The notes below the pieces were generated by a model. It saw only the letters and a program-made list of their open reading frames with translations. It searched no databases and was not told the origin of the DNA. From NCBI GenBank assembly GCA_029558315.1, contig JAKQFQ010000472.1:1-64000 (forward strand): a DNA stretch of 64,000 nucleotides, in the 5' to 3' direction. This DNA comes from Bacillota bacterium (GTDB taxonomy: Bacteria; Bacillota; Clostridia; Lachnospirales; Lachnospiraceae). This document shows, one piece after another, positions 30,365 to 61,275 of this stretch. The position numbers were made by a program, and so were the translations under genes. Each line of letters begins with the position of its first letter. Positions within the stretch are counted from its first letter, which is position 1.

Positions 30365-31699
30365 ATGAACGAGAATATAGCAATTGAAGTTAAGGATTTG
30401 ACGAAAATATATCGCCTGTATGAGAAGTCTTCTGACCGTGTGCGGGAGGCACTTCATCTGACGCGCAGATCAAGACATACAGAGCATTATGCTCTTCGCA
30501 ATGTGAACATTGATATCAGAAAGGGAGAGACGGTTGGTATTATTGGTACCAATGGATCAGGTAAATCCACCATTCTGAAGATTATTACAGGGGTATTGAA
30601 TCCAAGCGGTGGTGAAGTGAATGTGAATGGAAGAATATCTGCATTGCTGGAACTCGGTGCCGGTTTTAATATGGAATATACAGGATTGGAAAATATTTTC
30701 CTTAATGGAACCATGATTGGTTTTTCGGAAAAAGAGATTAAAGCCAAACTTCAGGATATTTTGGACTTTGCGGATATTGGAGAATTTGTTCACCAGCCGG
30801 TCAAGACCTATTCTTCGGGTATGTTTGTTCGTCTTGCATTTGCTGTAGCGATCAACATTGAACCGGAAATACTAATCGTAGATGAAGCACTTTCTGTTGG
30901 AGACGTCTTCTTTCAGGCCAAATGTTACCATAAATTTGAAGAGTTTAAGCAGATGGGAAAGACGATTTTGTTTGTGAGTCATGATTTGTCCAGTATTGCC
31001 AGGTATTGTGATCGCGTAGTGCTTCTGAACAAGGGCGTGAAACTTGGAGAAGGTTCACCAAAGAAGATGATTGATATCTATAAACAGGTTCTGGTAGGAC
31101 AGTATCAGGAGGAACAGTCGGATCAAGAGGAAGCGTCAGATAATCTGCTGAACGATCCTGCAATTATGGAAGCAGCCGGTAAATCGATGAGAGACGGCAG
31201 CGATCACTCTGATCCGGGATATCAGGAGACTAATTCGGATGGTAAGAATCCTGAGACCCTGGAATATGGTTCTAAGAAGGCAGTGATTACAGAGTATTAT
31301 GTTGAGGATGACAAAGGAAAGAAATCCAATGCGATACTAAAGGGATCAGAATTTTCGATTCATTTGAAGGTTAAGATATTAAAGGATGTTGCTGCACCAA
31401 TCTTTGCATTTACCTTTAAGAATGTGAAGGGAACGGAGATTACAGGAACCAATACAATGTTTGAAAAAGCCTTTTTGGAGGGCTGCAAAAAAGGAACGGA
31501 AAAGGAAATCGTATTTACGCAGAAAATGGATTTGCAGGGCGGTGAATACCTGCTTTCCTTCGGCGTTACAGGATACGAAAAAGATGATTTTACTGTATAT
31601 CACAGATTATATGATGTGCTGAATATAACAGTAATTTCGGATAAAAATACGGTTGGTTATTATGATATGAATTCTAAAGTTACCGTAAAAACGATTTGA
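30365..31699 (+). CDS. Polysaccharide ABC transporter ATP-binding protein with Wzt C-terminal domain
   Basis: GTNGSGKST Walker A, KTYSSGMFVRLAFAVA signature, ILIVDEALSVGD; about 200-aa C-terminal Wzt_C-like domain. Confidence 0.87.
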   Translation: MNENIAIEVKDLTKIYRLYEKSSDRVREALHLTRRSRHTEHYALRNVNIDIRKGETVGIIGTNGSGKSTILKIITGVLNPSGGEVNVNGRISALLELGAGFNMEYTGLENIFLNGTMIGFSEKEIKAKLQDILDFADIGEFVHQPVKTYSSGMFVRLAFAVAINIEPEILIVDEALSVGDVFFQAKCYHKFEEFKQMGKTILFVSHDLSSIARYCDRVVLLNKGVKLGEGSPKKMIDIYKQVLVGQYQEEQSDQEEASDNLLNDPAIMEAAGKSMRDGSDHSDPGYQETNSDGKNPETLEYGSKKAVITEYYVEDDKGKKSNAILKGSEFSIHLKVKILKDVAAPIFAFTFKNVKGTEITGTNTMFEKAFLEGCKKGTEKEIVFTQKMDLQGGEYLLSFGVTGYEKDDFTVYHRLYDVLNITVISDKNTVGYYDMNSKVTVKTI

Positions 31700-31733
31700 T
31701 GCTCCAAAGAGCAGGCAAAGCATGGAGGTTGTT

Positions 31734-33794
31734 ATGATCGAAAAGATAGGAAATGTATCCCTGGATCTAACCTATTATCCCGAAGAAGATTATTATTGTG
31801 ATGGAGCGGTAGAAGATGAGCTTCTTTCCATCGTCCAGGAAGTCGAACCATCTGAATATGGAAGAGTAATAGAGGAGAGAAAGAGCTGGCCGATACTGTA
31901 TCATCTTTCTCCACTGAGAGAGAATATTGTAGATTGGGTGCCATTGAATAAGGATGCAAAGGTTCTGGAGATTGGTTCCGGATGTGGAGCGATTACCGGT
32001 GCCCTTGCCAGAAAAGCCGAATCTGTAACCTGTATTGATCTTTCCAAGAAGAGAAGCAGTATCAATGCATACCGCCATAAGGAATTGGAGAATGTGACCA
32101 TAAAAGTCGGTAATTTTCAAGATATCGAACCATCTCTGGAAAACGACTATGATTACATTTTTTTAATTGGTGTATTTGAGTATGCACAGGCCTATATCAA
32201 CACAGAACGTCCTTATGAGGAATTTCTTCACATTGTTAAGAAACACTGTAAGGCGGATGGAAAAGTAGCAATTGCAATCGAGAATAAGTTTGGACTGAAA
32301 TATTTTGCGGGCTGCAGGGAGGATCATCTTGGTGAGTACTTTACCGGAATAGAAGATTATCCCAATAAAGGAGTTGTCAGAACATTTTCCAGAGGTGGAC
32401 TGGAGAAAATCTTAAAAGCATGTCAGATTGAAGATTATTCCTTTTACTATCCCTATCCGGATTATAAGTTTATGACAACTTTGTTTTCAGATGAACGCTT
32501 GCCACGTCTTGGGGAATTGACGAGTAATCTGCGTAATTTTGACCGCTCCAGACTTTTGCTCTTTGATGAGAAACCTGCTTTTGATGGAATTATCAGAGAA
32601 GAAGCATTTCCCATGTTCTCGAATTCCTATTTCCTTTTGATTGGTCAGGCAGAGGCAACCGTTTATTCGAAATATTCCAATGACAGAGCAGCAGAGTATG
32701 CGATTCGAACGGATATTGTGAAAGAGAAATCTGGCAACTGGCATGTGGAGAAACATCCAATGAATCCAGCCGCCAAGGGACATATGGAACAGATACTGCA
32801 TGCCAAAGAACTGCTTAGTGACAAATACAGCCAGTCGGATCTGGTAGTCTGTGAATGTGAGCCTAAGGAAGATGGACTTGTTTTCCCATATTTATCAGGG
32901 AAAACCCTGGAAGAATTACTGGATGAATGTCTGGAACGGGAGGATACGAAACAGCTGGAGCAGCTTCTGGAAAAGTATATGTCTTATTTGAATTATAATA
33001 AAGACTATCCGGCGACAGACTATGATTTGATTTTCCCAAATCTTTTGATTACAGAGAATTCCTGGCAGATAATTGATTATGAGTGGACCTATGAAAGAAC
33101 AATCCAACCGGAAGAGATTGCACAAAGAGCTTTATTCTGTTATATGCTTGGAAAGGGGAAACGAGAGAAATTAAATCTTGATTTAACATATAAAATTATG
33201 AAGATTGAGCATTTATCCATGGAAGAACTGAGAAAGAAGGAACTGAACTTCCAGCGCCTGGTGACGGGAGAGCGTAAATCCTTAAGCCAGCTTCGAGATC
33301 TGCTTCATGAGGAAGTCCTTCCGCTTAGGGATGCTGTTGCGATTTATCAAAATGAGCAGGCATTGGAGCGAATGCAAATCTATGTGGACGATGGACATGG
33401 ATTTCGAGAAGAACAGTCGGATTTTTATACACCAGAACAGCTTGCGGAGACGGAGAATGCTCCTAAACGCTATCGATTAGAAATCCCGGTTCCCAATCAG
33501 GTAAAGCAGCTACGCATGGATCCGGCAATGTTTCCCTGCCTTGTGACATTGCATGATGTCACCCTAAAGATTCAGGACAAGCAAAGTACAGTTGCTTTGG
33601 AAAGAATAAGGTCTAATGGAAGTATTATTGCTTCAAATACGTTTCTGTTTCGTGACAATGATCCCAATTTTACATTGCCGCTTGATTACGGTAAAACTAC
33701 AGTCCTATCGGTAGAATATAGCGTTGTCAGACTGCCGGACAAATTAGCACCACTGATTGCGATGGAAAAGCCCAGAAAATTATTTGGACGATAG
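31734..33794 (+). CDS. SAM-dependent methyltransferase fused to a kinase-like domain
   Basis: VLEIGSGCGAITGALARKA MTase motif I; later VFPYLSGKTLEELL, TDYDLIFPNLLI, QIIDYEWTY resemble an aminoglycoside/LPS kinase fold. A start at 31722 is also possible. Confidence 0.65.
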   Translation: MIEKIGNVSLDLTYYPEEDYYCDGAVEDELLSIVQEVEPSEYGRVIEERKSWPILYHLSPLRENIVDWVPLNKDAKVLEIGSGCGAITGALARKAESVTCIDLSKKRSSINAYRHKELENVTIKVGNFQDIEPSLENDYDYIFLIGVFEYAQAYINTERPYEEFLHIVKKHCKADGKVAIAIENKFGLKYFAGCREDHLGEYFTGIEDYPNKGVVRTFSRGGLEKILKACQIEDYSFYYPYPDYKFMTTLFSDERLPRLGELTSNLRNFDRSRLLLFDEKPAFDGIIREEAFPMFSNSYFLLIGQAEATVYSKYSNDRAAEYAIRTDIVKEKSGNWHVEKHPMNPAAKGHMEQILHAKELLSDKYSQSDLVVCECEPKEDGLVFPYLSGKTLEELLDECLEREDTKQLEQLLEKYMSYLNYNKDYPATDYDLIFPNLLITENSWQIIDYEWTYERTIQPEEIAQRALFCYMLGKGKREKLNLDLTYKIMKIEHLSMEELRKKELNFQRLVTGERKSLSQLRDLLHEEVLPLRDAVAIYQNEQALERMQIYVDDGHGFREEQSDFYTPEQLAETENAPKRYRLEIPVPNQVKQLRMDPAMFPCLVTLHDVTLKIQDKQSTVALERIRSNGSIIASNTFLFRDNDPNFTLPLDYGKTTVLSVEYSVVRLPDKLAPLIAMEKPRKLFGR

Positions 33795-43948: not shown

Positions 43949-44005
43949 GTTATCTGAGTGTGCGTTGAAGCGGCTCATAAAACAGTCGTAGTATGGAGGC
44001 TAGGC

Positions 44006-45415
44006 ATGATAAGAGATAACCAGCGTGTTTTAAATCAGATTCATGTATTGCTGGACGCCTTTGTGATTGGTGCTTCATATTTGCTGGCATGGTATATCAA
44101 GTTTGTGGTATTTCGCAACGAGGCAGATGTAGGCGTTGGAGTCCTGCCGCAGGAAACTTATTTTACCGCATTATATTTCATCGTACCTATCTATTTGGTT
44201 CTTTATTACTGCTGCGGATTATATATGTCCAAACGTTACTCCAGCAGCAAGCGTGAAGTATATAATATAATCAAGGCTAATACCATTGGATTGGGATTGT
44301 TTTTTGGAATTTTGTTTAGTGCTAAGATTATTGATTTCTCCAGGTCCATGATATTTATCTTTTTTGTATTAGCCAGTATTTTTGAGATCTGTGTAAGACA
44401 ATGGCTTCGCAAGATTCTGCGTACAATACGCAAAAAAGGTTATAATATTAAGTATATTCTCCTGGTGGGATATTCAAGAGCTGCAGAGAAATACATCAAC
44501 AGAATTATGGAGAATCCGCAATGGGGATATGTGGTTTGTGGAATTTTGGATGATAAGATTCCGGCAGGCACAATGTACCGAGGCGTTAAAGTTTTAGGAA
44601 GAATTGATAATATTCATGTGATTTTACCTGAAAATAAGATTGATGAGATTGGAATTTCACTGGCATTGGAAGATTATGACAGATTGGAAGAATTGGTGAA
44701 TATCTGTGAGAAATCGGGTGTTCATACTAAGTTTATTCCGGACTATAACAGCGTCATTCCGTCCAGACCATATATTGAAGATTTGACAGGACTTGCCGTA
44801 ATAAATATTCGGCATGTACCATTGACCAATACCGCAAATATATTTTTGAAGAGAACAGTGGATTTGTTTGGAGCGGTATTTTGTATTATTCTGTTTTCTC
44901 CGGTGATGTTGTTTTCTGCCATTTTGATCAAGATTTCGGATGGCGGTAAGGTAATCTTCTCGCAGGAGAGGGTCGGACTTCATAACAAATCGTTTCAAAT
45001 GTACAAATTCCGTACAATGAGGGAACAAAAGGAAGAAGACGAAAAACTGGGTTGGACGAAAAAAGGCGATCCCAGAGTAACTCCAATAGGACGGTTCTTA
45101 AGACGAACCAGTTTCGATGAACTGCCGCAGATGTTTAATGTTTTAAGAGGCGACATGTCACTGATTGGACCAAGACCGGAACGGCCTCAGTTCGTAGAGC
45201 AGTTCAGGGAAGAAATTCCAAGATACATGATTAAACATCAGGTTCGGCCTGGTATTACCGGTTGGGCACAGATTAATGGATATCGTGGTAATACTTCTAT
45301 TAGAAAACGAATAGAGTTTGACTTATACTATATCGAGAACTGGACTCTGTTGTTTGATATAAAGATACTATTCCTTACTATGTTCAAGGGATTTATCAAT
45401 AAAAATGCATACTAA
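44006..45415 (+). CDS. Undecaprenyl-phosphate sugar phosphotransferase (polyprenyl glycosylphosphotransferase)
   Basis: N-terminal TMs; KRTVDLFGAVFCIILFSPVMLFSAILIKISDGGKVIFSQERVG...RTSFDELPQMFNVLRGDMSLIGPRPE. ATG 44006 after ggagg; the listed ORF starts at 43958. Confidence 0.92.
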   Translation: MIRDNQRVLNQIHVLLDAFVIGASYLLAWYIKFVVFRNEADVGVGVLPQETYFTALYFIVPIYLVLYYCCGLYMSKRYSSSKREVYNIIKANTIGLGLFFGILFSAKIIDFSRSMIFIFFVLASIFEICVRQWLRKILRTIRKKGYNIKYILLVGYSRAAEKYINRIMENPQWGYVVCGILDDKIPAGTMYRGVKVLGRIDNIHVILPENKIDEIGISLALEDYDRLEELVNICEKSGVHTKFIPDYNSVIPSRPYIEDLTGLAVINIRHVPLTNTANIFLKRTVDLFGAVFCIILFSPVMLFSAILIKISDGGKVIFSQERVGLHNKSFQMYKFRTMREQKEEDEKLGWTKKGDPRVTPIGRFLRRTSFDELPQMFNVLRGDMSLIGPRPERPQFVEQFREEIPRYMIKHQVRPGITGWAQINGYRGNTSIRKRIEFDLYYIENWTLLFDIKILFLTMFKGFINKNAY

Positions 45416-51050: not shown

Positions 51051-52670
51051 ATGGGCGATAATGAAAACAAAGACGGAGAATATGAACAGGTTTGCTGTAT
51101 GTGCCACAGAACTGAAAGTACAGCGGGGAAAATGTTACGATTGCCAATCAATCTCTATGTTTGTGCGAGCTGTATGGATAATATATCGAAAATGATGGAT
51201 GAAGAGTTCGGAAAACTGACAACAAACGGTCAGATGAACTATGAACAGCTGGCTGCGATGTATCAGAATATGGATTTAACGAAGGAAATGCCCAAAGAGG
51301 ATGTAAATCAGAAAGAAGATGTAAATCAGAAAGAAGAAGTAAATCAGAAAGAAGATACAGCTCGACAAGAAGATACAAACCAGAAAGAGAATGAGAAGAA
51401 AGAACCGACTGTTACTCTGACGGAACCGGATGAACCTGAAAAGACGAATCCGGTTCTGCCCGAGCAACCGGATAATCAAAAGCCCGGACAAGCCAAAGGG
51501 CAGATTCCAAGATTCAGCTTTATTAATTTTGCTGATTTGCAGGGAGAATTGGGACTTGGTGGACGGCAAAAGGTGAAAAAACGGGAAAAGGGTGAAAGAA
51601 AGCCGTTAATTGATTTGAAGGATATACCGGCACCGCATAAAATTAAAGCTCAGTTGGATGAGTATGTAGTTGGTCAGGAACATGCCAAGAAAGTAATGTC
51701 TGTTGCTGTTTATAATCACTATAAACGAGTTGCAACAGATACGATGGATGATATTGATATTGAGAAATCCAATATGCTGATGATTGGACCGACTGGCTGT
51801 GGCAAGACTTATCTTGTAAAAACACTGGCAAAGCTATTAGATGTGCCCTTGGCGATTACAGATGCAACAAGCCTGACAGAAGCCGGATATATTGGAGATG
51901 ACATCGAAAGTGTTGTCAGCAAGCTTCTGACAGCAGCTGATAATGATGTAGATAAAGCCGAACAGGGAATTATTTTCATTGATGAAATTGATAAGATCGC
52001 AAAGAAACAGAATACGAATTCACGCGATGTGAGTGGCGAATCAGTTCAGCAGGGAATGTTGAAACTATTAGAAGGGGCTGATATCGAGGTCCCTGTTGGC
52101 GCTTCATCCAAGAATGCGATGGTTCCAACAACTACAGTGAACACTAAGAATATACTATTCATTTGTGGTGGAGCATTCCCGGGACTTGAAGAGAACATTA
52201 TAGATCGAGTAAAAAAACAAACATCCATAGGGTTTAACGCGGAACTTAAATCAGGATTGAACAAAGAGAAGAACGTTTTACAGAAAGTAGAGACGCAGGA
52301 TATCAGGAAGTTTGGAATGATTCCTGAGTTCGTTGGACGTTTGCCGATGGTATTTGCATTAGAGGGACTTGATGAAGAGATGCTTGTAAAGATTCTGAAG
52401 GAACCGAAGAATGCTATATTGAAGCAATACCAGAAGCTGTTAGAATTAGATGCAGTGAACCTGAAATTTACGGATGAAGCTTTAACAACAATTGCACAAA
52501 AGGCGATGAAAAAGGAAATGGGAGCCAGAGCACTTCGCTCAATTATCGATGATTTCATGCTGGATATTATGTACGAAATCCCGAAGGACGACAATATTGG
52601 CCAGGTAACCATTACAAAAGAGTATTTAGAAGGAAAAGGTGGTCCGCTGATTGAACTGCGAGAGAACTGA
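51051..52670 (+). CDS. ClpX-family AAA+ ATPase with zinc-binding domain and extended linker
   Basis: CCMCHRTES...YVCASCMDN zinc domain, GPTGCGKTY Walker A, IIFIDEIDK Walker B, GYIG pore loop, IGF loop (TSIGFNA), GARALRS sensor 2. Confidence 0.9.
   Translation: MGDNENKDGEYEQVCCMCHRTESTAGKMLRLPINLYVCASCMDNISKMMDEEFGKLTTNGQMNYEQLAAMYQNMDLTKEMPKEDVNQKEDVNQKEEVNQKEDTARQEDTNQKENEKKEPTVTLTEPDEPEKTNPVLPEQPDNQKPGQAKGQIPRFSFINFADLQGELGLGGRQKVKKREKGERKPLIDLKDIPAPHKIKAQLDEYVVGQEHAKKVMSVAVYNHYKRVATDTMDDIDIEKSNMLMIGPTGCGKTYLVKTLAKLLDVPLAITDATSLTEAGYIGDDIESVVSKLLTAADNDVDKAEQGIIFIDEIDKIAKKQNTNSRDVSGESVQQGMLKLLEGADIEVPVGASSKNAMVPTTTVNTKNILFICGGAFPGLEENIIDRVKKQTSIGFNAELKSGLNKEKNVLQKVETQDIRKFGMIPEFVGRLPMVFALEGLDEEMLVKILKEPKNAILKQYQKLLELDAVNLKFTDEALTTIAQKAMKKEMGARALRSIIDDFMLDIMYEIPKDDNIGQVTITKEYLEGKGGPLIELREN
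51297..51392 (+). repeat. 18-bp coding repeats in the clpX-like linker
   Basis: Units gatgtaaatcagaaagaa; encodes EDVNQKEDVNQKEEVNQKEDTARQEDTNQKE. Confidence 0.85.
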
Positions 52671-55079: not shown

Positions 55080-56015
55080 TTATTTGGTAATGAGTGTTCC
55101 GACTTTACCCTTTATTACATCATCTATATTCTTTAGTGAAGTAATAAGAACGCTGCCGGAGGGAACTGATTCTAAATAAGCGATAGCTGCTTCAATCTTA
55201 GGCAACATATTGGTTGCGGCAAATTCATTCTCAGCAATCATCTTTTTGGCACAATCAACCGTCATCTCTGCGATCGGTTGAGCCTGATCTGTATTGAAAC
55301 CGGAATAAACAAAGTCAACACTGGTAAAAATAATCAGCTGGTCAGCCATAAGATCAGCTGCAAGCTTACCGGCAATGCTATCTTTTTCAATAACGGCAGA
55401 GGCACCTTTTAGAATATGGTTCTGCTCGATAACGGGAATTCCACCACCGCCACAGGCAATAACAATTTGTTCGGCATCAGAAAGTGCACGAATGGCATCA
55501 ATCTCAACAATGTTAAGAGGATGTGGTGCAGCAACTACTCTTCGGAATCCTTTTTCAGGTACTTCAGTAACGTAATTGCCCTTTTTGATTTCAATCTCGG
55601 CATCCTCCTTAGACATATAACGTCCAATCACTTTTTGAGGATCATAGAAAGCCTCGTCATAAGGATCAACAGTAACCTGGGTCAAAATGGTACTTACCGG
55701 AGTTGCTATTCCGCGACTTAGTAATTCAGAACGTAAGGCATTCTGAATATCATAACCTATATATCCTTGACTCATTGCAGAACATACGCACATTGGAGCC
55801 GGTGTATAATCGATATAAATACGACGAAGCTCGGTCATGGCTTTGTGAATCATACTGACCTGCGGCCCATTGGAATGTGTAATTGTCAGCTGATAATCAT
55901 TTTCTACAAGTTTGGCCAATGCTTTTGCAGTATCCTGAACTGCATCACGTTGCTCAAGAATTGTATATCCTAAAGCTTCATGGCCAAGAGAAACAACTAC
56001 TTTCTTTTTACTCAT
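55080..56015 (-). CDS. arcC: Carbamate kinase
   Basis: MSKKKVVVSLGHEALGY, HSNGPQVSMIHKA, VIACGGGGIPVI; the listed ORF starts further upstream (56081). Confidence 0.92.
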   Translation of the reverse strand: MSKKKVVVSLGHEALGYTILEQRDAVQDTAKALAKLVENDYQLTITHSNGPQVSMIHKAMTELRRIYIDYTPAPMCVCSAMSQGYIGYDIQNALRSELLSRGIATPVSTILTQVTVDPYDEAFYDPQKVIGRYMSKEDAEIEIKKGNYVTEVPEKGFRRVVAAPHPLNIVEIDAIRALSDAEQIVIACGGGGIPVIEQNHILKGASAVIEKDSIAGKLAADLMADQLIIFTSVDFVYSGFNTDQAQPIAEMTVDCAKKMIAENEFAATNMLPKIEAAIAYLESVPSGSVLITSLKNIDDVIKGKVGTLITK

Positions 56016-56100
56016 ATCTGTACCTGCTTTCCCTTTCTTTGCATGAACAAAGAAATATATTATTGATAATAAGTATATCAAATGAAGGTAGAAAAATCTA

Positions 56101-56129
56101 TAGACATTTCAAAAACACGGTGTTATAGT
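56101..56129 (+). promoter_or_regulatory. Possible promoter for the 56329-62807 gene set
   Basis: TAGACA - 17 nt - TATAGT. Confidence 0.4.
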
Positions 56130-56150
56130 AAATGTATCACAAATAGAACA

Positions 56151-56204
56151 AAAAGCAACACAAAGCAACATAAAGCAACACAAAGCAACACAAAGCAACA
56201 CAAT
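56151..56204 (+). repeat. 10-bp tandem repeat, five units, in leader region
   Basis: (a/c/t)AAAGCAACA x5 followed by caattt. Confidence 0.9.
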
Positions 56205-56233: not shown

Positions 56234-56324
56234 AACCTCCGGACAGAATATTAGAGTCAGAGCCACAGACTGCGCATGGCTCAAGCCTTAGGCACTCTAC
56301 AAAATTAGTCGCAGCATGGAGGTT
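56234..56324 (+). promoter_or_regulatory. Candidate structured 5' leader RNA sequestering the Shine-Dalgarno
   Basis: Stems AACCTCC/GGAGGTT, TAGAGT/ACTCTA, GAGCCA/TGGCTC, GCC-TTA-GGC; possible pseudoknot CTGCG/CGCAG. Confidence 0.45.
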
Positions 56325-56328
56325 AAGT

Positions 56329-58128
56329 ATGAAAATAAGAAAGTGGATTTTTTTTCTGGTAGGAATTCTATTGTTCCTACAGGGTAGAGTGTTACTATGC
56401 CCAATAATAGCTGATGCTTCAGAACTGGTACAATCGCCAGAGACGGTTGAAATTGATTTGCTTCATCAACATTCAGGAGAAAAGTGTTATGAAAGAGTAT
56501 GGGTTCCCTGTGGTGGTCACTGGGGTACCTATTTTGAACCATATGTAATGGCTACAGTTTATTCTTGTTCTAATGCATATAGCAACCAGGTAGTCAATGG
56601 AGTAACGCTATCCTCTATCCATAATAGCTGGGTATGTAATGAGATGCTTGGAATCCATGAAGGAGACTATGCTGCATCATGTATCTGTACAGAGAATCTG
56701 ATGGGACATTTTAGCGTAACACGAAAAGAAACAGATGCAGGGATAGTATTAGAAGCAGTATTACTTGATGCTTCTGCTCAATTAACAGAGTATTCAATCA
56801 CCTGGAATCGTGGAATAACACAGTCAGACGAGAATGCCTCTTGGATTATTGTGCCGGTGAATGGAGTTTATACAGCAACAATAGAATGGTATGATGCCAA
56901 AGAAGAAGCATGGCATCAGGCGGCGATTGACTATACGGAGTTATCTATTCCCATAAATATTCATTATATGGTTAATGAAGTATCTGTTTCAGAGTCAATC
57001 ATACGTTATGGAGATGCGGTAGGCAATGTGTTACCGCCGACACGCAGTGGTTATGATTTTTGCGGATACTATTATAAGGAACAGTTGATTAATAATGCGG
57101 ATGGTTCTGCAGTAAATGGGACATTTGCAGACTGGGAAGAAAGTGAGGTGTACTTAGAATCCGCATGGAAACCAAGACATTACCTGATTTATTATGGAGA
57201 AGATCTTGATGAAGACGGCATGTTAGATGAATCACAGGAAGTCATTTTTGGTGAGGAATATCAATCTATTACATGTCCGGAGAATCGGCAGGGATTTTCT
57301 TTTCAGGGATATTATATTGGAAATGAGCAAATTTTTGATTCTGAAGGTCAACCTACGAATCTTTGGAAGTGGGATTTGGAAGGGGAACTGACATTGGTTG
57401 ATCAATGGGTGCCGATAATCAGTCATACTATAGAGTGTGAAACTCACATAGAAGAATCGCAGGTCGCAGATGTTGTTGCTTCTAGTGTTCCACAAGAGAC
57501 TACAATTAGTGAAGACGCAGTAACAATGGAAATGGAAGATATTAGTGTGAATACCACTGATAACACTACTGTTAGTATAGAAGCTAATGAACAAAATGAT
57601 TACTCAGAAAATCTGCCGGAAACGACAAATGAGACGCAGCAGGATGAAATAGAAGAACCTATTATTATAGAGTCAATACCTCAGAATAACATAAGAGAAG
57701 AGATATCAGCAAATGAGATTCCACTATTGCTGTCACCGGTATCACCGCAGATGAATCAGGAAACATTGGCAGAATCTCATACCTTGCTAAAAAATGTTAT
57801 AAAAGTAACAACGATTACAATTGGTAGTCTTGTTGCAATATGGGGATGCGTATGGGCTTGGCTGTACTTTTTTGCGATGGCCTCAATTTGGTCTTATCAG
57901 ATAAGTGGAAAGCAACTCCTTCTTGGAAAACAACTAATTACTTCGAAGGGACCTGTGTTACAGATTAATATCACGAAAAAAATGCTGCTAAAGTGTGATA
58001 CGAACCAGATTCAGATTACCATTCCCAGGTGGTTTGTAAAAATGCAGAAAAATAAGGAAATTCTAATTCATGTACCGGATAGAACCATTTCCGAACATAT
58101 TAAAGCAATAATGAATATCAAACTGTAG
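56329..58128 (+). CDS. Secreted/surface single-pass membrane protein with Cys-containing N-terminus, InlB_B-like repeats and cytosolic C-terminal tail
   Basis: Signal peptide MKIRKWIFFLVGILLFLQG; GYDFCGYYY..., QGFSFQGYYIG repeat-like segments; TM VTTITIGSLVAIWGCVWAWLYFFAMA followed by about 85 residues. Confidence 0.65.
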   Translation: MKIRKWIFFLVGILLFLQGRVLLCPIIADASELVQSPETVEIDLLHQHSGEKCYERVWVPCGGHWGTYFEPYVMATVYSCSNAYSNQVVNGVTLSSIHNSWVCNEMLGIHEGDYAASCICTENLMGHFSVTRKETDAGIVLEAVLLDASAQLTEYSITWNRGITQSDENASWIIVPVNGVYTATIEWYDAKEEAWHQAAIDYTELSIPINIHYMVNEVSVSESIIRYGDAVGNVLPPTRSGYDFCGYYYKEQLINNADGSAVNGTFADWEESEVYLESAWKPRHYLIYYGEDLDEDGMLDESQEVIFGEEYQSITCPENRQGFSFQGYYIGNEQIFDSEGQPTNLWKWDLEGELTLVDQWVPIISHTIECETHIEESQVADVVASSVPQETTISEDAVTMEMEDISVNTTDNTTVSIEANEQNDYSENLPETTNETQQDEIEEPIIIESIPQNNIREEISANEIPLLLSPVSPQMNQETLAESHTLLKNVIKVTTITIGSLVAIWGCVWAWLYFFAMASIWSYQISGKQLLLGKQLITSKGPVLQINITKKMLLKCDTNQIQITIPRWFVKMQKNKEILIHVPDRTISEHIKAIMNIKL

Positions 58129-58229
58129 CGTATTCAATATTACTCTATAGTATGCGCTTGCACTACCACACCAAACAAGGTAAAATAAGAATATTATTTT
58201 GTAGTGTAAATAGAAGAGGAATAGGCAAT

Positions 58230-59738
58230 ATGGTACACATTTTTTCCGCGTTGGAGCGACAGAAGGAACAGATAGAAGCAGTGTCGGACGGAAAACTGAA
58301 AAGAGGAAATAAGAGTGCGGTTTCAGAATATATTTTGAGCCGTTTGGTATTAGTGTGCGATGAAATACGGGTTACGGATGTTGATGCAATAGGATATCTT
58401 GAAGTATTGTATAACAGAGTACTGGAGGATCCAAGAATCGCATCAACAGAACGTAGCCTATTGGACGTATTAGACAAGATGGAAGAAGATTTGATGTTTG
58501 ACTGTTCCGTTTTTGGAGAGCGGGCGACATTTATCTTGAATTTTTTAGAAGCGGATTTATTACGTAGTGCTGCGGACAAAACAAGAAATGATAATGAAAA
58601 GAGAATACTTGGAAGAATTCAGATAATACGTTCTTTATTCCTGGAGGAAAATAAAAAGGATTATGACGAACATAAGGGTGCCAGTAAACCGGCGCAGATC
58701 AAAGCATATTTAGATGAGCATGTAATCGGTCAAGAGGTGGCTAAAAAGGCAATCAGTTTAGCTGTTTATGGACACGATAAGAGAGTGAAACATCCAGATA
58801 TTAAGTTCGCATCAAATGTTGTCTTACTAATTGGACCGTCCGGGTGCGGAAAAACAGAAATTATGCGAAGAATTCAGGAAATTACAGATTATCCAATGAT
58901 ATTTACTGATGTTTCTTCACTTGGGGCCTCACAATACAGGGGGAGACATAAAGAGGATATTTTAATCTCACTCTGGGAACAGGCGGGACGAAAGAAAGCA
59001 TTAGCTGAAAACGGTATTATTTTTATGGATGAATTTGATAAGCTGCTTCTTCCTGCTATTTCTGAGAAGGGAATCAATATGCATGACGATGTCCAATCTC
59101 AATTACTTACTATGCTGGAAGGCAGCGATGTAGAACTGAAAGTTAATGGACAGAATCTTGTTTTAAACACTTCACATATGCTTTTCATTCTTGCAGGAGC
59201 ATTCCAAGGAATTGAGGAGTATATCCGAAACGATCAAAAACGAAGAAAACAAATTGCAGGCAATATTGGATTTTTATCTCCGCTTGAGAAAGAAATGGAT
59301 TTAGATTTTGTGCGGGAAAACATTAGCCATGAGGTTCTTATGGCTTATGGAATGAAACGCGAATTGGCCGGAAGAATAAGTGCGATTGCAGTTCTTGAAA
59401 GACTACAGAGAAAAGATATGATTCGCATACTGACAGAGCCCAGGGAAAGTATTATTTGCAGATATGAGAAGGAGTTTCAACTATCCTGTGGAGCAGATCT
59501 GGAATTTACAGAGGATGCATTAGAGGCTATTGCTGACCTTGCTTTGAAGGAGCCAATTGGTGCAAGAGCGTTACAGCCGATTGTGCGAAAAGCATTAAGA
59601 GATGCTTTGTTCTGTGCCCCACAGAGGTCTAAAGGCGGTCACGTCATTGTTGATAGAGAAGTGATTTTAGAAGGGAAACTACCCATTTTTGAAGAAGCGG
59701 ATGAACGCACGGGAGAGTGGAATGAAGAAAATCTTTGA
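58230..59738 (+). CDS. Divergent ClpX-like AAA+ ATPase (paralogue 1)
   Basis: AYLDEHVIGQEVAKKAISLAVYGHDKR, GPSGCGKTE, IIFMDEFDK, GNIGFLS, GARALQP; no zinc domain. ATG 58230 after agagga; the listed ORF starts at 58152. Confidence 0.82.
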   Translation: MVHIFSALERQKEQIEAVSDGKLKRGNKSAVSEYILSRLVLVCDEIRVTDVDAIGYLEVLYNRVLEDPRIASTERSLLDVLDKMEEDLMFDCSVFGERATFILNFLEADLLRSAADKTRNDNEKRILGRIQIIRSLFLEENKKDYDEHKGASKPAQIKAYLDEHVIGQEVAKKAISLAVYGHDKRVKHPDIKFASNVVLLIGPSGCGKTEIMRRIQEITDYPMIFTDVSSLGASQYRGRHKEDILISLWEQAGRKKALAENGIIFMDEFDKLLLPAISEKGINMHDDVQSQLLTMLEGSDVELKVNGQNLVLNTSHMLFILAGAFQGIEEYIRNDQKRRKQIAGNIGFLSPLEKEMDLDFVRENISHEVLMAYGMKRELAGRISAIAVLERLQRKDMIRILTEPRESIICRYEKEFQLSCGADLEFTEDALEAIADLALKEPIGARALQPIVRKALRDALFCAPQRSKGGHVIVDREVILEGKLPIFEEADERTGEWNEENL

Positions 59739-61275
59739 TCAATGCACACAACAGGATTTTCCACAGTATTTAAAAGAAAGAATGACCGAATACCAGGCAA
59801 AGAGGAAAAAATTCTCGAATCCAAAAGCTGTTTTTGATTACCTGTCTTTGGTGATTTACTATCTATATGTTGTAAGACCGAAACAAGAACAAACACTTGC
59901 AAGCATTATGAAACTTCTGGGGGCAACCTATCGTGAGCGTGGTTATAAGACCCCGTTCTGGGGCATTGTTCGCAAGGCAGCCAATGATTATCCTAAAGAA
60001 TTGCTTTTTTTTCAGGGACGTCAACTGGAAGACCAAATAACCAATGACGATGTGGAGGAAATGTTTGATTTCCTGGAATATGATATATTGCAGGAAACAG
60101 ATGATACAGAAAAAGAAATGGATCTTGGACAGCTCGGTATATGTCGTGTAAGATATCGTCAGGATCGCTCCAATCATATTCATATGAAGAGGACTGCGAA
60201 AGAAAAGGACAAGGAAACAAATGAAGGTTTTTTGGAGTTGTGCAAAGAATTTATAGATGAGTATTCACCACAAAAGATTAAAGAATATTTGGACGAATAT
60301 GTCATAGGACAGGAAGAAACTAAAAAAACATTAAGTGCAGTCCTGTATAATCATTATCTTCGCATATTGAATCCGCAAGAGAATCTGGTAAAAACAAATG
60401 TACTGATGATTGGTCCGTCAGGCTGCGGGAAAACAGAATTAATTCGTAGAATAATGGACCTTGTTAACGTACCTGTTGTGATTTCTGATTTTAGTGGGGT
60501 AGTTGCCACTCCGTGGAAAGGAAGAAATAAGGAAGAAGCATTACTGAATTTGTACATAAAGGCCGGGAAAGATATGGCACTGGCTGAATGTGGGATTGTG
60601 TTTTGCGATGAGTTCGATAAAATCATACCAACGAAAGATTACTTAAAAAATGGTGATATTAATAATGAACTGCAAGGACAGATGCTTGGAATGATGGAAG
60701 GCACAGTTATGGATATTCCATTTCCCGTAGGGCAGGGCGCTGTAGCTAATCTTTCGATGAATACCAAAAACATACTGTTTATTTGTGCCGGAGCATTTGA
60801 AGGCCTGGATAAGATTGTAGAGAAAGATGTAGCAGATACAACCATGGGATTTGGAAGTGAAGCAAAGCTGCAACAAACGTTTGAGATTACACAGGATAAT
60901 ATTAAGACAGAGCATTTGATGAAATATGGCATGAAGGCAGAACTTGCAGGAAGAATTGGAACCATTACAGTATTACAGGGGCTGGATCGTACTGCAATGA
61001 AACGCGTACTATTAGAACCAAAGGATAGTATCCTTTCAAAATACGAGAACGAATTTCGAGTGAAGGAACAGGTGAAATTAACTTTTCTTCCGGAAGCACT
61101 GGATGTCATTATTGATCGTGTGCTGAACATGAGTATTGGTGCGAGAGGATTAAATTCTGTGATACATGATATTCTTGCTGAAGCCTTATTTGAAGTACCG
61201 ACGATGGAAACGGTACATGAGGTTCTGATCACAAAAGCAGCAGCCGAATTGGAAGAAAAGCCAGAATACAGATAG
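59722..61275 (+). CDS. Divergent ClpX-like AAA+ ATPase (paralogue 2)
   Basis: EYLDEYVIGQEETKKTLSAVLYNHYLR, GPSGCGKTE, IVFCDEFDK, TMGFGSEA, GARGLNS. ATG 59722 after gggagag, overlapping the upstream stop; the listed ORF starts at 59689. Confidence 0.82.
   Translation: MKKIFDQCTQQDFPQYLKERMTEYQAKRKKFSNPKAVFDYLSLVIYYLYVVRPKQEQTLASIMKLLGATYRERGYKTPFWGIVRKAANDYPKELLFFQGRQLEDQITNDDVEEMFDFLEYDILQETDDTEKEMDLGQLGICRVRYRQDRSNHIHMKRTAKEKDKETNEGFLELCKEFIDEYSPQKIKEYLDEYVIGQEETKKTLSAVLYNHYLRILNPQENLVKTNVLMIGPSGCGKTELIRRIMDLVNVPVVISDFSGVVATPWKGRNKEEALLNLYIKAGKDMALAECGIVFCDEFDKIIPTKDYLKNGDINNELQGQMLGMMEGTVMDIPFPVGQGAVANLSMNTKNILFICAGAFEGLDKIVEKDVADTTMGFGSEAKLQQTFEITQDNIKTEHLMKYGMKAELAGRIGTITVLQGLDRTAMKRVLLEPKDSILSKYENEFRVKEQVKLTFLPEALDVIIDRVLNMSIGARGLNSVIHDILAEALFEVPTMETVHEVLITKAAAELEEKPEYR

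Follow-up and report, generated by a model that had tools for sequence, protein, structure and literature searches.

The stretch of Lachnospiraceae DNA analysed here (64,000 nucleotides, hereafter the window) contains a structured leader directly upstream of a gene for a 599-aa protein, and raises the question of whether this leader is a riboswitch or an RNA of another kind. A preliminary description, made from the sequence without database searches, had regarded it as a riboswitch-like RNA with a junction, a possible pseudoknot and a sequestered Shine-Dalgarno (SD) sequence, and had assigned it to no known riboswitch class.

Anatomy of the leader

The stems, the 11-nt loop, the complementary CTGCG/CGCAG segments and the start codon were all found exactly where they had been described. 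The features of the locus are as follows.

56101-56129, + strand: candidate promoter TAGACA-17-TATAGT, with TG ahead of the second hexamer (consensus scan)
56234-56240, + strand: 5' strand of P1, anti-SD AACCTCC, of the gene-family-specific SD-sequestering stem (exact sequence and homologues)
56252-56257, + strand: TAGAGT, 5' strand of the junction stem, partner 56294-56299 (MFE fold)
56260-56282, + strand: P3 hairpin GAGCCA-(CAGACTGCGCA)-TGGCTC, with arms at 56260-56265 and 56277-56282 and an 11-nt loop at 56266-56276 (covariance model R1, 40.6 bits; 9/9 pairs covary in the family)
56270-56274, + strand: CTGCG in the P3 loop, 5' strand of the pseudoknot, complementary to 56310-56314
56285-56293, + strand: P4 hairpin GCC-TTA-GGC (all 3 pairs covary across the family; 82% of cells are paired)
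56294-56299, + strand: ACTCTA, 3' strand of the junction stem (MFE fold)
56307-56322, + strand: conserved box AGTCGCAGCATGGAGG, recurring at ribosome-binding sites (RBSs) across Lachnospiraceae, in which GGAGG is the SD
56310-56314, + strand: CGCAG inside the box, 3' strand of the pseudoknot (97.2% paired in the family, two double-change pairs)
56318-56324, + strand: 3' strand of P1, GGAGGTT including the SD (ensemble pairing probability 0.86-1.0)
56329-58128, + strand: putatively controlled gene, ATG at 56329, encoding a secreted or surface protein of 599 aa (Listeria-Bacteroides repeat match weak and below the cut-off)

The MFE fold of the leader (-26.3 kcal/mol) recovered P1, the junction stem and both hairpins, in agreement with the described secondary structure, the pseudoknot excepted. 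In the ensemble fold, the SD bases were paired with a probability of approximately 1. Computed with energies at 37 °C, P1 and the pseudoknot would be able to coexist. The fold energy of the leader was ordinary (z = -0.95; 33 of 200 shuffles were equally stable), and therefore folding alone is insufficient to carry the claim of a structured leader. In dinucleotide shuffles of the leader, AACCTCC occurred in 0.3% and CCTCC in 2.9%. What takes the claim beyond chance is comparative evidence: P1 is kept in homologues, and the inner part fits a covarying family.

Concerning the surroundings, the candidate promoter would give the window gene a 5' untranslated region of approximately 190 nt, and TGnTATA[GC]T-like sequences could be read off the leader sequences upstream in homologues. 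Downstream of the candidate promoter and ahead of the leader there is a 10-bp tandem repeat (AACACAAAGC, 5.7 copies, 56147-56203). The leader is adjoined by a divergent amino-acid-kinase (carbamate-kinase-like) gene (55080-56081), and an amino-acid-kinase-like neighbour is also found beside the homologous gene at three other loci (L289, L291 and L295). Three ClpX-like AAA+ open reading frames are present within 10 kb; 51051-52670 passes the ClpX cut-off, and 58152-59738 and 59689-61275 are divergent and lie downstream of the surface-protein gene.

P1 in homologues of the surface-protein gene

A search of 98 genomes found homologues of the 599-aa protein in 27, and 26 of these 27 genomes belong to the genus of the window. 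We compared P1 among the 20 best homologous loci, in each of which the start codon and upstream DNA were located. Of the 20 leaders, 18 (that of the window included) had a CCTC[C/T] upstream that could base-pair to the SD, the CCTCT variants still pairing through G-U. At positions -120 to -14, neither the 30 leuC leaders taken from the genus of the window nor the 31 other window genes contained this motif. The P1 loop was 11-38 nt in the other homologues, occasionally with an inner hairpin, and 77 nt in the window. The stability of the P1 hairpin varied threefold among homologues, from about -6 to -19 kcal/mol (37 °C energies). Covariation among homologues had been proposed as a check of the whole leader; as described below, the inner part passes it, whereas in P1 the outer pairs, AA/UU in the window but UAU/AUA in L299-L301, change with compensation in some homologues only. 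As the P1 core contains the SD, it is near-invariant and its covariation is limited.

The inner junction and pseudoknot were absent from all examined homologues of the window gene, P1 being retained there, and we found no close homologue with an empty (element-free) site at the window gene itself. The comparison indicates that P1 is an older SD-occluding stem specific to the surface-protein gene family, and that P1 and the inner element are evolutionarily separate parts of different origin. One subclade of homologues (L293, L294, L297 and L304) carries GAGGTTCTGACCGTTCGGTCACCTC ahead of the SD stem; there, the anti-SD could pair with either the upstream GAGG or the SD, a possible two-state switch.

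The inner structure belongs to a dispersed element

In a DNA search of relatives, AGTCGCAGCATGGAGG was first seen recurring at the RBSs of unrelated genes. A typical copy of the surrounding element comprises, from 5' to 3', GGAG, a hairpin P2, P3 with the CTGCG loop, P4, an A-rich linker and the box. The box reads CGCAG-CAU-GGAGG, which places the pseudoknot strand three bases upstream of the SD. The window copy is without P2 and has TAGAGT/ACTCTA at its junction; P3 with the CTGCG loop, P4, the CGCAG-CAT-GGAGG box and a start codon after it, by which the element is defined, are all present. A covariance model consisting of P3, P4 and the box (R1), built without the window sequence, found this copy with an E value of 5e-10 (40.6 bits). 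R1 also found a second copy in the window, ahead of a gene for an undecaprenyl-phosphate glucose phosphotransferase with its start at 44006.

43951-43999, + strand: degenerate element copy (R1 23 bits, E 5e-5; box AGTCGTAGTATGGAGG)

A weak third match (31680-31728, 15.4 bits), before a gene starting at 31735, may be due to chance.

Among 102 distinct matches, changes on both sides were observed for all nine P3 pairs and all three P4 pairs, counts that are biased towards the model since the alignment was fitted to these two hairpins. The loop/box pseudoknot was paired in 97.2% of cells, compared with 23-41% in slid controls, and two of its six pairs had changed on both sides (CTGCG/CGCAG to CTACG/CGTAG); the pseudoknot is not part of the covariance model, yet the alignment rows were selected by the conserved box. 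Two independent copies, L167 (in its own genome) and L192 (from another genus), are compensated in this manner, both having CTACG with CGTAG. Covariation thus strongly supports the hairpins of the element, and the proposed leader with a junction, a pseudoknot and a sequestered SD is backed by both the homologues and the covarying family. For an equivalent of the junction stem in other copies, covariation gives no proof.

Several further features were considered and rejected. A GGAG/CUCC stem upstream, common to the copies, scored 5.04 with its own pairing and 4.83 with swapped partners, and a two-state switch through GCUGC/GCAGC lacked covariation support. A leader peptide beginning at [GT]TG after the 5' GGAGG would be in frames that differ between copies (read by eye). 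As for an antisense small RNA complementary to the box, the exact matches sit before genes. Many boxes are without the P3 hairpin, which suggests that the box has a further partner beyond the pseudoknot.

Distribution, position and turnover of the element

A scan for the box followed by ATG in 85,462 species genomes gave 68 stretches, nearly all from Lachnospiraceae. The targets, named by eye from N-terminal sequences, included pgk, leuC, dnaJ, dxr, folE, pyrG, mnmG, tsaD, adk, ddl, topA, rseP, def, ABC transporters and others; rnjA was also among the element-bearing genes. The element stands before dozens of functionally unrelated genes, with no association to a single pathway. R1 matches at E <= 0.01 were present in at least 18 of 397 genomes of the family, a lower bound with 13 candidates scored per genome.

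When one mismatch at most was allowed, a start codon and open reading frame came after 113 of the 121 boxes, many of these loci having come from the scan that required ATG. Nineteen element bodies were found without the use of the box (13 in genome G110 and 6 in G198), and each of the 19 was followed immediately by a box on its own strand. Rather than occurring in either orientation relative to genes, these bodies all had the same orientation at an RBS box.

The copies are species-specific and homogeneous, with many per genome, and their presence varies between related species. At leuC, a full copy was found in G011, divergent copies in G015 and G022, and none in G018 and G007, while the first 200 residues of LeuC are 99-100% identical among G011, G015, G018 and G022. 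Tandem copies occur at L242, L209 and L149, the units at L242 being 97 nt. With regard to a possible target-site duplication, GGAG is present at both ends of the element, but at leuC the 5' GGAG is part of the inserted unit and not of the old site. Neither a linked transposase nor a target-site duplication was identified for the element, and phage and plasmid records gave no match to it. The fast turnover at leuC, the tandem copies and the fixed position at the RBS lead us to conclude that the element spreads or turns over fast and is retained only as an RBS.

Proposed mechanism and alternative explanations

Taking together the anatomy of the leader, the conservation of P1, the covariation of hairpins and pseudoknot, the strict position at the RBS and the turnover between related species, we consider it fairly probable that this is a composite leader, in which translation is controlled by SD occlusion and a dispersed pseudoknot-SD cassette lies inside the loop of the occluding stem. 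P1 would pair the upstream CCUCC with the SD and lower the access of ribosomes to the gene at 56329, presumably repressing it. In the window species, the P1 loop holds a copy of the dispersed Lachnospiraceae cassette, which itself provides the SD, with CUGCG in the P3 loop pairing to the box three bases upstream of the SD. The pseudoknot may tune initiation. Since most other copies precede housekeeping genes, the pseudoknotted form probably permits initiation and defines the mRNA state immediately 5' of the SD. By expanding the P1 loop from 11-38 to 77 nt and placing a rigid structure beside the SD, the cassette probably shifts the equilibrium between the closed and the open form of P1. We presume that a small ligand is not involved.

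A broader interpretation can be put forward only tentatively: that the element is a self-spreading RBS cassette of Lachnospiraceae, a pseudoknotted module which replaces the native RBSs of unrelated, often essential genes and imposes shared translational control, and which in the window entered an existing SD-sequestering switch. About equally doubtful is the possibility that the element is a non-regulatory mobile or repeat sequence of the REP/MITE kind, of which only RBS-restoring copies survive, its structure reflecting the means of spreading. The homogeneous species-specific copies, the 97-nt tandem units, the rapid turnover at leuC and the functionally unrelated targets are all consistent with such a repeat. 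However, a mobile/repeat category has been described in which inconsistent orientation is typical of mobile candidates (PMC11109978), and our element keeps a strictly fixed orientation and position with respect to the start codon. The retention of box and pseudoknot across genera while the stems change, and the lack of an identified target-site duplication or linked transposase, also argue against a mere repeat.

A classical riboswitch, in which a metabolite bound at the junction opens or closes P1, is suggested by the junction, pseudoknot and sequestered SD, which resemble those of translational riboswitches. We nevertheless regard it as highly improbable for this leader: the junction module stands before dozens of unrelated genes, no Rfam class matches, and P1 is kept in homologues without the junction. 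Nor is the inner element itself likely to be a metabolite riboswitch, given the lack of a common function among its targets and of a matching Rfam class. The riboswitch interpretation is not supported, the inner structure being a dispersed element and P1 a property of the gene family, not of that element. P1 might instead be an RNA thermometer that melts with temperature, the element having come to lie in its loop by chance. The simple, conserved SD-occluding hairpins of the homologues, at about -6 to -19 kcal/mol, and the ClpX-like AAA+ genes downstream would suit this explanation, but the threefold spread in stability does not, and a heat-shock context was not shown; we judge a thermometer to be improbable, though less so than a riboswitch. 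Among these explanations, the composite leader remains the one we prefer.

Comparison with known systems

An Rfam scan of the window produced nothing at gathering score, and nothing relevant to the leader at E values up to 10; the c-di-GMP riboswitches, for which the preliminary description had suggested probing, were among the classes without a match. Eight other element copies likewise gave no match on the coding strand. The only sub-threshold Rfam match to any copy was TD-2 RNA (RF03162; 30.9 bits against a gathering score of 48.7), on the opposite strand of L120. We rejected this match, which arose because the hairpins of the element are palindromic. We found no description of the element in the open-access literature, which does not cover all journals, and it is probably new.

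If the mechanism is as proposed, a movable RNA cassette, rather than a fixed leader, sets the translation start of many unrelated genes, which would be an unusual route for genes into a post-transcriptional regulon. The covarying family model is absent from Rfam and is open to testing in members of the family that can be cultured, for instance Lachnoclostridium phytofermentans. The window would provide a case in which an older SD-occluding leader now contains the dispersed cassette.

Translational riboswitches of the preQ1-I and SAM-II types form pseudoknots between a hairpin loop and a tail near the SD. In the element, too, the loop of a hairpin is paired to a strand that follows it next to the SD, and an A-rich linker separates the two. 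It differs in having no Rfam match, in preceding dozens of unrelated genes, and in that its SD is adjacent to the pseudoknot helix instead of within it. Other known leaders sequester the SD in a hairpin or act as RNA thermometers; P1 is similar in that a CCUCC upstream of the SD pairs with it in 18 of the 20 homologous leaders, whereas in the window the P1 loop contains a whole structured element. Dispersed repeats of bacteria include REP, BOX and MITE-like elements. The element shares with these its many copies per genome, species-specific families and variable presence between related species, but unlike them it is fixed in orientation and position at the RBS, to which it supplies the SD.
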